Assembly: GCA_031277915.1 (NCBI GenBank)
Contig: JAITLL010000079.1
Span: forward strand, 1-42,532
Reading direction: 5' to 3'
From: Acinetobacter sp.
Lineage (GTDB): Bacteria; Pseudomonadota; Gammaproteobacteria; Pseudomonadales; Moraxellaceae
Length of the DNA stretch: 42,532 nucleotides
Part shown: piece after piece, positions 35 to 40,975 of the stretch
Position numbering within the stretch: the stretch's first letter is position 1
Layout of the letters: every line of letters starts with the position of its first letter
Translations under genes and position numbers: made by a program
Notes under the pieces: model-generated
What the model was told of the DNA's origin: nothing
Databases searched by the model: none
The model's input: only the letters and a program-made list of their open reading frames with translations

Positions 35-73
35 AAAAAAACTGTGCCCTTTCTGGGAGAAAAAAAGGCACAG
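35..73 (-). terminator. Rho-independent terminator ending C4-like leader copy 1
   Basis: Read on the minus strand, CTGTGCC and GGCACAG arms (42-73, with a further T/A extension and one bulge) form a hairpin followed by seven T residues (35-41). It stands between the leader and the tetR gene expected to the left. Confidence 0.75.
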
Positions 74-185
74 CAAAGCCGTAGAGACTGTGCATGGCAC
101 ATCTCAAGTTTTGTTGTTGCTAAGTTTTAAATAAGAATGACTTAAAGCCTGAAAACCTTATGGCATTCAAGCTGCTTTAAAATTT

Positions 186-394
186 TTAAGCGGTATCGTT
201 ATAGCTTTTGGCATCGAGAGCCAAGAAATAATGAATGTGCAAAGCCAACTCCTTTTTATTGGGAGTTCTGCCGACATTAAAATTATGGTGGCAGAACGGA
301 AGCAGGTTGACGAACTGGTCACACGAGGCCAGCACACTCGAAAGTGTCCCACTCCCGTCCTACCGCTACGGGAGGGAACGAGGTGTGCACACAA
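186..394 (-). pseudogene. Icd-like leader ORF, copy 1, frameshifted
   Basis: This is the copy-1 counterpart of the intact 92-codon ORF at 15918-16196. The stretch ending RSATIILM matches that ORF, but one base is missing at about 272-276. The upstream frame therefore runs out in a different frame (stop at about 167), while the tail HIHYFLALDAKSYNDTA stays readable in the ancestral frame to a TAA at 186-188. Against copy 2 the tail shows three synonymous changes and one replacement (D for I), the pattern expected of coding sequence. An AAGGAG site (minus strand of 249-254) lies six bases before an in-frame TTG, so the tail might be translated alone as a peptide of about 18 residues. The broken part may therefore not matter. 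The call is by position in a C4 leader (icd in P1), not by strong sequence recognition. Confidence 0.45.
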
Positions 395-401
395 AACTAC
401 T

Positions 402-423
402 CCTCAGATGGAATAATTCTGAT
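402..423. repeat. 22-bp direct repeat, left copy (in C4 leader)
   Basis: It contains CAGATGGAATAATTCTGAT, found again with one mismatch at 1845-1866 at the end of the CPBP gene. It is not present at the equivalent place in leader copy 2. Confidence 0.75.
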
Positions 424-477
424 ACTCGTGTGAGAGCGGTTCGTCAAAACCGACTGGCAATGTAGGCCAGCAGGCAA

Positions 478-506
478 AGAATAGTGCCCAAGTCCCTTGC
501 AGTCAA
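478..506 (-). promoter_or_regulatory. Promoter of C4-like leader copy 1
   Basis: On the minus strand TTGACT (501-506) is followed after exactly 17 bases by TATTCT (478-483). Copy 2 has TTGACA-17-TACCAT at the same distance from the shared start TTGCCTGCTGGCC. The spacer and upstream sequences differ between copies, so the two boxes appear selectively kept. Confidence 0.7.
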
Positions 507-992: not shown

Positions 993-1859
993 ATGCGATT
1001 AATGAATTTTATTTTTAATATATTATCTTTATCATTTTTAAGTATAAGTGTTCATTTTATTGGATATTATATAGTTAATAAATCAGATGATGGATTAATT
1101 ATTAATCTTACGATATTTACCGTATTGGGTATTACAAGCATTATTATTTCTTTATCCTTAATCAATAAATACGTTTACACATCAAAATTACCTTCGTTAA
1201 ACTCAACACAGTTTAAACTAGACGCATCTAGAGTTTTTTTCTGGATATTTTTAAGCTTAGCTTTTTGTTTCATTGCTTTTGTAAGTACTTTTCTATTTAT
1301 TGGAAAAAATATCTATATCACACAAACACCCTTTCTATACAGCCTATATTTTTCGTTTATTTCGGCCCTATTCCCTGGTGTTGTAGAAGAAATTTGTTAC
1401 CGTTGGTTTCTTTATGGAAGATTAAAAAAAACTACAAACAAATTCTTAGCAGCCACTGTCGTAGGCATCATATTTTCCCTGTTACATTTTAATCAAGTCA
1501 ACACATTTGAATCAAAAGTTTTATTATTATATGCAGGCATTTCAGTTACATATTTATTTTGTGCTCTGTACGAAAGTACAGGAAGTATTTGGCCTTGTGC
1601 TATCTTACATACTGCATGGGATATGTTTTCGATAAATACTCTAGTCCATGTGCAATTTGCATCCAAATTAGAACCCGTTAAGGCTTATCAACTTATAGTT
1701 ATAACACTTCAGGATAGTAATATATTGATGAGTGGTGGTGACTTTGGTTTTGAATCCAATATTAGTTCTATAACATTGTACTTACTGGCAGCCATCAGCC
1801 TAATTATGTATCAAAGAAGCTCTATATCTAAGCAAAGAAATATCCCTCAGACGGAATAA
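993..1859 (+). CDS. CPBP-family intramembrane metalloprotease (Abi/CAAX protease-like)
   Basis: The 288-residue hydrophobic protein has several membrane segments and the three glutamic-type protease motifs of the CPBP (PF02517) family: EEICYR at 132-137, a FxxxH motif at 161-165 (FSLLH) and HTAWD at 206-210. CPBP proteins act in the membrane as CAAX-type proteases; bacterial members are linked to bacteriocin self-immunity, prenyl-peptide processing or regulated proteolysis, and the substrate here is unknown. The gene is more AT-rich than its neighbours, which suggests transfer. Its last codons (NIPQTE) are encoded inside a 22-bp sequence shared with C4 leader copy 1, so the 3' end may be a recombination junction. 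A second ATG at codon 4 is an alternative start. Nothing adjacent on the same strand suggests an operon. Confidence 0.85.
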   Translation: MRLMNFIFNILSLSFLSISVHFIGYYIVNKSDDGLIINLTIFTVLGITSIIISLSLINKYVYTSKLPSLNSTQFKLDASRVFFWIFLSLAFCFIAFVSTFLFIGKNIYITQTPFLYSLYFSFISALFPGVVEEICYRWFLYGRLKKTTNKFLAATVVGIIFSLLHFNQVNTFESKVLLLYAGISVTYLFCALYESTGSIWPCAILHTAWDMFSINTLVHVQFASKLEPVKAYQLIVITLQDSNILMSGGDFGFESNISSITLYLLAAISLIMYQRSSISKQRNIPQTE

Positions 1860-1915
1860 TTCTGATGCGGTATACAGCAGTCTGCGACTATCAGTTGGCA
1901 ATGTCTTTTATCTTA
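1845..1915 (-). repeat. Degenerate C4-leader fragment with 22-bp direct repeat
   Basis: Bases 1845-1866 repeat 402-423 with one mismatch. Reading on, a CCAACTG/GGCAATGT element lies about 31 bases away, against 33 in leader copy 1 (ACATTGCC on the minus strand). The interval has the arrangement of the 5' end of a C4 leader but no C4 hairpins follow, because the CPBP gene occupies that place. Confidence 0.55.
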
Positions 1916-1985
1916 GAAATATCTATAATAAACATAGCAGATTCTTAGAATCACTGCTCTATATGGATATTGACGGTGAAGTAAT

Positions 1986-15769: not shown

Positions 15770-15808
15770 GAAAAAAGCCTGTGCCTTTTTGGGAGAAAAA
15801 AAGCACAG
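15770..15808 (-). terminator. Rho-independent terminator between C4-like leader and tetR
   Basis: On the minus strand CTGTGC (complement of 15803-15808) pairs with GCACAG (complement of 15779-15784), extended by a T/A run, and is followed by a T tract (15771-15776). It is conserved in copy 1 at 35-73. Confidence 0.75.
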
Positions 15809-16190
15809 CAAAGCCGTAGAGACCGTGCATGGCACATCTCAAGTTTGTTGTTGCTAAGTTTTAAGTAAAAATGGCTAAAGCCTGAAAACCTTATGGCATT
15901 CAAGCTGCTGTAAATTTTTAAGCTGTGTCGTTATAGCTTTTGGCAATGAGTGCCAAGAAATAATGAATGTGCAAAGCCAACTCCTTTTTATTGGGAGTTC
16001 TGCCAGGCATTAAAATTATGGTGGCAGAACGAAAGGGGGTTCGCGGACTGGCCTTAAGACTCCAGCACACCCAAAGGTGTCCCCCTCCCGTTCCACCGCA
16101 GAGGGGGCACGAGTAACTAAACACTAAAAGTATAACCTTTAATGCTCCTAAGGGACGGTCCGCGACGACCGACTGGCAATGTAGGCCAGC
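15770..16190 (-). ncRNA. C4-like structured antisense RNA leader, copy 2
   Basis: Same plan as copy 1. Hairpin 1 is CCCCCTC/GAGGGGG (16081-16107), and hairpin 2 is ACACC...GGTGT (16067-16080). A long-range pairing joins 16041-16048 (TCGCGGAC) and 16158-16165 (GTCCGCGA). The Shine-Dalgarno hairpin AACTCC/GGAGTT lies at 15979-15999 and the terminator at 15770-15808. Relative to copy 1, three base pairs in the long-range helix and one in hairpin 2 change on both sides, keeping the pairing. This is strong evidence for a functional RNA. By analogy with P1/P7 the processed C4 RNA would pair with the leader and control translation and termination ahead of the next gene, here tetR. Confidence 0.8.
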
Positions 16191-16196: not shown

Positions 16197-16225
16197 ATGG
16201 TAATCTTCAATATTTGAGGTGTCAA
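16197..16225 (-). promoter_or_regulatory. Promoter of C4-like leader copy 2
   Basis: On the minus strand a perfect -35 TTGACA (16220-16225) and TACCAT (16197-16202) are separated by 17 bases. The predicted start is in the shared sequence GCCTGCTGGCC at about 16185-16195. Confidence 0.75.
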
Positions 16226-40733: not shown

Positions 40734-40789
40734 AGGAATAGTTCCAGCCGGGCGAATAAGAAACCATTGGCGCGACAACACGCCTCGCC

Positions 40790-40975
40790 CGACTAGCAAA
40801 GCACGTTGCGGCCAAAGGTCTCGCCTAGCTCACACTGTATATATACAGCGGCTGAACACGCCATGAGATACTCATCTCAAGTTTGTTGACGTGGTCTTCC
40901 TAGCTGGGTACTAGGAATGGCTACTCCCCAATGACAATGGGGTGGATTCTACCAGTGTTTTCGTCGCAACTCTAC
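40790..40975 (-). promoter_or_regulatory. yybP-ykoY manganese riboswitch
   Basis: The minus strand carries the conserved core ATTGGGGAGTAGCC (GGGGAGTAGC at 40920-40929) and, after two arms, GCGAGACCTTTGG (40814-40824 and beyond), which are the two Mn2+-aptamer strands. A hairpin with arms AGTCGGGCGA and TCGCCCGGCT follows next to the antiporter ATG. It could hide or free the start region (GGA about nine bases before ATG). Mn2+ binding would turn on translation or read-through of the exporter, as with mntP and alx in E. coli. Confidence 0.88.

Follow-up and report, generated by a model that had tools for sequence, protein, structure and literature searches.

The 42,532-nucleotide contig JAITLL010000079.1 of Acinetobacter sp. 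(assembly GCA_031277915.1), which we call the window at its full length, carries two C4 antisense RNAs, copy 1 and copy 2, and raises the question of whether each of them recognises its own leader and what such a recognition would control. Both RNAs match Rfam family RF01695 above its gathering cut-off of 45 bits, lie on the minus strand and have three stems (Table 1). An earlier note on this DNA had proposed, from base changes that compensate each other between the two copies, a selected RNA interaction through which the copies would regulate themselves and not each other, as in the heteroimmune phages P1 and P7. We conclude, with moderate confidence, that every one of these elements is an antisense switch addressed to itself and located in a gene's 5' leader, the gene mostly encoding a TetR-type regulator.

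C4 elements in Acinetobacter genomes

The genome of the window gave 26 C4 matches, 25 of them above the cut-off. A search for C4 in 14 control genomes gave a match in none of them (0/14), and 67 of the 80 Acinetobacter genomes drawn, this one included, had at least one; nine genomes had 15 to 26 and the rest 0 to 8. The loci sampled were 29 new ones from the 80-genome survey and 114 further places among those listed (the short contig G030 was omitted), together with all matches in six genomes (that of the window, G007, G008, G054, G062 and G047) and 19 C4 RNAs of Acinetobacter baumannii X4-300, whose record is filed as a plasmid and where stricter filters may miss weak ones. The total of 289 entries corresponded to 251 distinct places, of which 250 were scored. 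The six fully taken genomes and X4-300 form the seven-genome set. The pairing tests included 24 of the 26 C4 RNAs of the window's genome, L018 and L026 being omitted as degenerate tandem copies, and these 24 were aligned with the 19 of X4-300 to give 43 leaders, the rows of this alignment being mostly diverged paralogues.

Pairing of the C4 RNAs with their own leaders

The elements follow one another as Region 1 hairpin, a1 (presented by the loop of a hairpin), b1, the C4 RNA, an 18-codon reading frame with a hairpin at the ribosome site, an intrinsic terminator and the gene. Within the C4 RNA, the 3' segment a' is unpaired and the loop b' is hypervariable; the complements of both, a1 and b1, are located in its own leader in antiparallel order. 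The a1:a' helix of copy 1 was found where the earlier note had placed it, between positions 307-315 and 439-447, with nine pairs. That of copy 2 also exists, and its side at positions 16158-16165 had been located correctly, but it has eight pairs rather than nine, the first T of 16040-16048 facing a C and remaining unpaired. Pairs 3, 4 and 7 differ on both sides between the copies (G-C to C-G, A-T to G-C and A-T to G-C, respectively), as had been described, and the change of hairpin 2, which is P2 of the C4 RNA, from ACACT/AGTGT to ACACC/GGTGT is present as well.

The results of our permutation tests showed that, in the window's genome, the mean helix score of a' was 21.83 on its own leader and 16.47 on permuted leaders, while that of b' was 19.08 and 13.06, respectively (0/2000 permutations in both cases). 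The match to the own leader exceeded all 2000 permutations for a' and for b' in each of the seven genomes. In the alignment of 43 leaders, the a1:a' helix was 97.2% paired and five of its nine pairs were changed on both sides; at columns 55:220, the pair was G-C in 19 leaders, A-U in 14 and C-G in 10, and it was never unpaired. The hairpin presenting a1 covaried on its own (99.5% paired, four of five pairs changed on both sides), and so did the C4 stems. Covariation over the alignment, Region 1 hairpin included, reached 0.278 versus 0.125 in shuffled alignments (0/500) and at most 0.084 in slid ones, two controls that do not take out the relatedness of the rows. The a1:a' helix is real and selected, and the selected RNA-RNA interaction proposed in the earlier note is supported.

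The a' segments fall into few classes that are common to many copies and the b' loops are mostly copy-specific; judged from the sequences, the individuality of the copies lies mainly in the second pair, b1:b', which involves the loop of P3. The combined sets of a' and b' were distinct within their own genome for 149 of 149 copies of the seven genomes (L018 and L026 omitted), one b' loop occurring twice in three of the seven. When the helix scores were summed, the own leader was the unique best for 20 of the 24 C4 RNAs of the window's genome, and the separation of addresses appears to be good in this genome and partial in the six others. In the window, the C4 RNA of copy 1 scored 45 on its own leader versus 27 on that of copy 2, and the C4 RNA of copy 2 scored 40 on its own leader versus 23 on that of copy 1. 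These scores predict the recognition of self over the other copy that had been claimed, but the pair used for this claim, a1:a', is insufficient alone: with G-U pairs allowed, at least four foreign leaders gave the a' segment of copy 2 a better score than its own leader did. Identical sets of a' and b' were found in 0/599 pairs within genomes versus 18/2215 pairs between genomes at other sites (76 copies, five genomes), a depletion within genomes that is suggestive only, as unrecognised orthologues may inflate the figure between genomes.

Genes led by the C4 elements

A gene for a TetR paralogue or for a 94-amino-acid cysteine-containing protein is located about 280 to 340 nucleotides 3' of the C4 RNA. 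Among the 26 entries of the window's genome, 19 have a TetR gene behind them (17 genes, two entries being tandem remnants ahead of one gene) and 5 the gene of the small protein; the remaining 2, copy 1 among them, are at a contig end. In the seven genomes, a TetR gene was found within 450 nucleotides behind 106 C4 RNAs. Comparison of the window TetR with X4-300 gave 26 matching regions, of which the best 14 (E <= 2.3e-42) each had a C4 RNA 280-319 nucleotides upstream on the same strand. No C4 RNA occupied that position ahead of the 15th (5.5e-38) or of the 11 regions that matched more weakly. Genes for phage Rha regulators (L052, L140 and L169) and for a CHC2 zinc-finger protein (L054) were found behind C4 in other genomes.

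The 94-amino-acid protein (L013:935-1219, minus strand), found behind 5 of the 26 C4 leaders, had no Pfam match, and its gene was kept at several sites while the C4 address changed. In Acinetobacter genomes with few copies (L034, L045, L088 and others), C4 leaders precede small products that resemble lipoproteins or membrane proteins as judged by eye; that of L034 had no Pfam match. In Acinetobacter as a whole, such leaders may be a module of general use.

The leader pair as the site of selection

The functional target of C4 in phage P1, a2/b2 over the icd ribosome site, was sought in both window copies and was absent. When the copies were split into types by the sequence immediately 3' of C4, both window copies were placed in type D (78 copies, 11 genomes), in which the leader was cognate for both a' and b' (0/2000 for each) but permutation revealed no downstream match (400/2000 for b' and 87/2000 for a'). 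Selection therefore acts on the leader pair. A second targetless type (15 copies) likewise had no downstream match (583/2000 and 1107/2000), and 20 of the 25 classed copies of the window's genome belong to these two types. The remaining 156 copies, which are not type D by their signature (51 genomes or records), were matched as a group to both leader and downstream sequence (0/2000). The downstream match of b' was weak in the window's genome (53/2000), whereas the six other genomes, which hold more copies of the P1 layout, had a strong one (0 or 1/2000).

We also compared 19 chromosomal sites common to at least two of five genomes (one flank matched), at which the b' loop differed in 65 of 89 pairs. 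Identity of the downstream protein reached 80% or more in 33 of the 65 and fell below 60% in 23, while the background identity between sites was 46.5%, with 3 of 76 comparisons at 80% or more; the cases below 60% thus represent a different paralogue at the site or a misjudged site. An exact b' match of at least six letters to the own leader was present in 59 of 64 rows at common sites, the rows without it being L240, L247 and three rows of one site (of the 19) that lacks a real protein call. The exact b' match of L009 was five letters long, and several G047 rows were poor. The loops of L174 and L239, which share a site, are distinguished by one substitution and an extra T; in b1 the substitution is compensated and a second change is present, and the helix goes from eight to seven pairs.

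Predicted folding and the proposed switch

For both window leaders, the fold of lowest predicted energy pairs a1 and b1 with a' and b' in cis and breaks the closing stem of C4 (z -4.85 and -2.51). Folding of the 43 leaders gave a mean of 0.81 for the cis pairing and of 0.09 for the closing stem. When a1 and b1 were barred from pairing, which mimics a C4 RNA bound in trans, the stem increased from 0.09 to 0.51 and the pairing of its 3' arm beside the ribosome site decreased from 0.68 to 0.40. The complement between this arm and the downstream sequence was cognate (0/2000) in 249 loci, in the 24 of the window's genome and in 80 loci of low-copy genomes. A three-way exchange between leader:C4, the C4 stem and arm:downstream is thus supported at the sequence level. 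A hairpin of -10 kcal/mol or below before a T run was found between C4 and TetR in 93 of 106 loci by a scan without shuffled control, which in L017 picked the hairpin at the ribosome site. RNA sequencing of A. baumannii AB5075 indicated an RNase-P-like release of C4 (PMC5320573, in its text).

In the switch that we propose, a released C4 RNA would bind in trans to a1 and b1 of later transcripts from the same gene. A leader bound in this way could not pair with its own C4 domain, and the domain would fold and be cut out; the ribosome site would stay closed, the terminator would act and the gene would remain off. When C4 is scarce, a1 and b1 would pair with a' and b' in cis and C4 would not be released, in which case the 3' arm would find its downstream partner next to the ribosome site and expression of the gene could begin. 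C4 would favour its own release and each gene would have two self-sustaining states, which would be independent of those of the other genes because the addresses are private. That the control runs in this direction and that each gene's state is bistable are predictions of this model.

Relation to the TTTR regulators

According to the main text of PMC9802203, the TTTR set of A. baumannii consists of 11 related TetR regulators and one pseudogene; four TTTRs are activated at random, and the family drives the switching between opaque and translucent variants. The same text reports that TTTRs rarely alter each other's expression, that autoregulation was not seen in three of them, that TTTR-on variants are sufficiently stable for isolation and that the genes have a transcribed stretch between the start site and the coding region; SrvS is the known activator, and possible effects on termination or mRNA stability have been proposed for it (PMC9802203). 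The events behind TTTR activation are referred to as uncharacterized molecular events in the text of PMC10845969. Group 1 C4-like small RNAs have been reported with their map positions in the same strain, AB5075 (text of PMC5320573).

Comparison of the two maps, made by multiplying the number of the locus tag by one fitted constant and using 17 Group 1 places (20 of 21 names, a four-member cluster being counted once), showed that 12 of 12 TTTR tags are within 30 kb of a Group 1 C4 small RNA, versus 0/5000 random sets fitted alike, and that 7 of 12 are within 10 kb, versus 4/5000 random sets. A TTTR is defined as a TetR protein whose DNA-binding domain is a close relative of that of ABUW_1645, and our comparison was of map position only. 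From their positions, the C4-led TetR regulators are very probably the published TTTRs. We found no publication joining C4 leaders to TTTRs in the literature covered, which did not extend to supplements or to most subscription papers.

A private antisense RNA ahead of each TTTR gene would make the question of random switch-on directly testable, would give a likely use to some twenty small RNAs of previously unknown role, and would provide numerous near-orthogonal antisense pairs of natural origin for the study of how RNA addresses diverge. Only tentatively do we suggest that the elements form parallel, insulated RNA memory switches, in which a C4 RNA from the own leader holds each TetR gene off, that they are bistable between cis and trans pairing and change their addresses rapidly by compensation, which would prevent paralogous switches from silencing one another, and that they are the missing cause of the stochastic and combinatorial activation of the TTTRs.

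Evidence against the switch and alternative explanations

Several of our observations weigh against the proposed switch. Five of the 26 elements here, and by position 5 of the 19 in X4-300, do not lead a TetR gene, and the gene of copy 1 is past the contig end. Insulation is incomplete in the six other genomes, where just 12 to 14 of the 19 to 24 C4 RNAs had their own leader as the unique best. Blocking a1 and b1 restored little of the stem in the window copies (0.03 in L019 and 0.11 in L010), the exposure of the ribosome site shifted little on average, from 0.125 to 0.067, two of the 43 leaders (L300 and L304) folded as C4 unaided, and folding was computed without regard to the order of transcription. 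The identity with the TTTRs rests on the order of locus tags, not on sequence. In addition, the aadB leader, which holds SrvS, had no complementarity to C4 leaders above shuffles, in a comparison of ten of its 70-nucleotide windows (the ends of SrvS being approximate), with 20 simple shuffles each, against 8 of the 19 leaders.

A simple negative feedback, in which the released C4 would bind its own leader at a1/b1 during synthesis and stop transcription early with no bistability, is unlikely but deserves to be taken seriously. A comparable early stop is ascribed to the seqA/CI RNA of phage P4, and both the retention of a1/b1 where a2/b2 is absent and the terminator-like hairpins before TetR are in line with such a feedback, which leaves unexplained, however, the downstream partner of the arm that tracks C4 and the stable TTTR-on variants that can be isolated (PMC9802203, main text). 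It seems quite improbable that the pairing of a1/b1 with C4 is a cis fold of the precursor only, affecting its stability or the timing of RNase P without any action in trans. The cis fold is indeed the predicted minimum in both window copies, but copies that all differ within a genome would not be expected of a helix acting in cis alone, and the published reads, which contain far more C4 than upstream leader, point to a released C4 (text of PMC5320573).

The use of the C4 copies as guides against incoming P1/P4-like elements is one of two options put forward for P1/P7-like phages in the text of PMC5320573. The leaders located ahead of phage genes (Rha in L052, L140 and L169, CHC2 in L054) would agree with this role, which we find very hard to sustain here given that the match retained is with the own leader, that the association is regularly with TetR or the small protein, and that the 20 phage records listed among the 28 matching the window element resemble bacterial contigs. 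We give almost no credence to the absence of any selected pairing, whole elements being copied by recombination with a leader and a C4 RNA that match by descent. This would account for the identical addresses at different sites in different species (18/2215 pairs); descent keeps a match, however, and cannot create many different matched pairs, and the loop substitution between L174 and L239 was met by a compensating base in b1 despite the second, uncompensated change in b1 and the added T in the loop.

Features of the window

The coordinates of both elements are given in Table 1. A search of the Protein Data Bank with the sequence of the copy 2 TetR gave seven matches, all of them other TetR-type or transcriptional regulators (best 7.7e-12).

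Table 1. Coordinates of the two C4 elements in the window
Feature	Positions	Strand	Sequence	Remarks
Copy 1 C4 RNA	284..370	-		RF01695, 57.8 bits
Copy 2 C4 RNA	16017..16103	-		RF01695, 61.8 bits
Copy 1 sigma-70-like promoter	478..506	-	TTGACT-17-TATTCT	consensus match only; 2 found, 1.3 expected
Copy 2 sigma-70-like promoter	16197..16225	-	TTGACA-17-TACCAT	consensus match only
Copy 1 Region 1 hairpin	454..470	-	CTGGC-CUACAUU-GCCAG	loop motif identical to Region 1 of A. baumannii Group 1 small RNAs
Copy 2 Region 1 hairpin	16173..16189	-		
Copy 1 a1	439..447	-	GTTCGTCAA	element of the earlier note; partner of a'
Copy 1 a'	307..315	-	TTGACGAAC	element of the earlier note; unpaired segment of C4
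Copy 2 a1	16158..16165	-	GTCCGCGA	
Copy 2 a'	16041..16048	-	TCGCGGAC	
Copy 1 b1	425..433	-	TCACACGAG	partner of b' in the P3 loop of its own C4
Copy 1 b'	319..327	-		loop of hairpin P3
Copy 2 b1	16146..16153	-	CCTTAGGA	8 pairs to b', one of them G-U
Copy 2 b'	16052..16059	-		
Copy 1 closing stem of C4, 3' arm	289..297	-		complement also at 265-272
Copy 2 3' arm	16022..16030	-		complement at 15997-16005
Copy 1 arm partner and hairpin over Shine-Dalgarno	247..272	-	GGCAGAAC	hairpin AACTCC/GGAGTT
Copy 2 arm partner and Shine-Dalgarno hairpin	15979..16005	-	TGGCAGAAC	
Copy 1 putative 18-codon reading frame	186..242	-		TTG start; frame only
Copy 2 putative 18-codon reading frame	15918..15974	-		TTG start; frame only
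Copy 1 intrinsic-terminator-like hairpin and T tail	41..74	-		contig end just past the hairpin
Copy 2 intrinsic-terminator-like hairpin	15779..15808	-		43 nucleotides before TetR (measure of the scan)
Copy 2 TetR-family regulator, 182 amino acids	15184..15732	-		behind the C4 element; Pfam TetR_N 2.8e-14; paralogues behind other C4 copies

An orphan leader was present at positions 1831-1940 (minus strand), with a partial Region 1, an a1-like sequence (TCGCAGAC) and the next hairpin, but it was not followed by a C4 match. This leader may be a vestige, or it may act as a decoy for C4 RNAs of the same a' class. A manganese (yybP-ykoY) riboswitch was found at positions 40744-40941 (minus strand, 63.7 bits).

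A phage carrier of the window element was considered and rejected: 28 phage records match the element, and the 20 listed look like bacterial contigs. These 20 are all named 'Acinetobacter phage MD-2021a' (CAKLQF02/CAKLQH02), are at most 378 kb long and have up to four element places each; they are probably bacterial DNA filed as phage. Three A. baumannii records filed as plasmids that match the element (NZ_CP064203.1, NZ_CP104448.1 and NZ_CP077849.1), of 3.7-4.1 Mb, are probably chromosomes.

Comparison with known systems

The C4 RNA of phage P1 (c4-icd-ant, RF01695) resembles the window copies in its fold and in the order a1, b1, C4, and its a' core, CTGTCAA, is identical to that of many Acinetobacter copies. 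Record AF234172 of P1 has putative a1 and b1 annotated on the 5' side of C4, and a2 and b2 on its 3' side, b2 adjoining the start of icd. Unlike in the P1 operon, an 18-codon frame takes the place of icd and, in copy 2, a TetR gene that of the ant antirepressor; and, unlike P1, one Acinetobacter genome holds about two dozen copies with private loops. The likeness to P1 and P7 drawn in the earlier note thus applies to the RNA but not to the operon, since neither copy has a2/b2 and copy 2 leads a TetR gene; the setting of copy 2 is not an immunity operon.

The Group 1 small RNAs of A. baumannii AB5075 are likewise multi-copy C4-like RNAs with a Region 1 hairpin and a variable loop; in the text of PMC5320573 we found neither cognate a1/b1 sites and their covariation nor the genes behind these RNAs, whose genomic context is given in the supplement. 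The c4-a1b1 motif is a named motif of gamma-Proteobacteria and phages, and we found no description of its use ahead of paralogous genes in PMC2864571. The main text of PMC9802203 does not contain the word 'antisense', and we found no description of C4 leaders in it; the TTTR family presented there is similar to the C4-led genes as a set of closely related TetR regulators, and these are stochastically activated. Compared with these systems, what appears to be new is that a C4 element leads a gene, in most cases a gene of a family of paralogous regulators.
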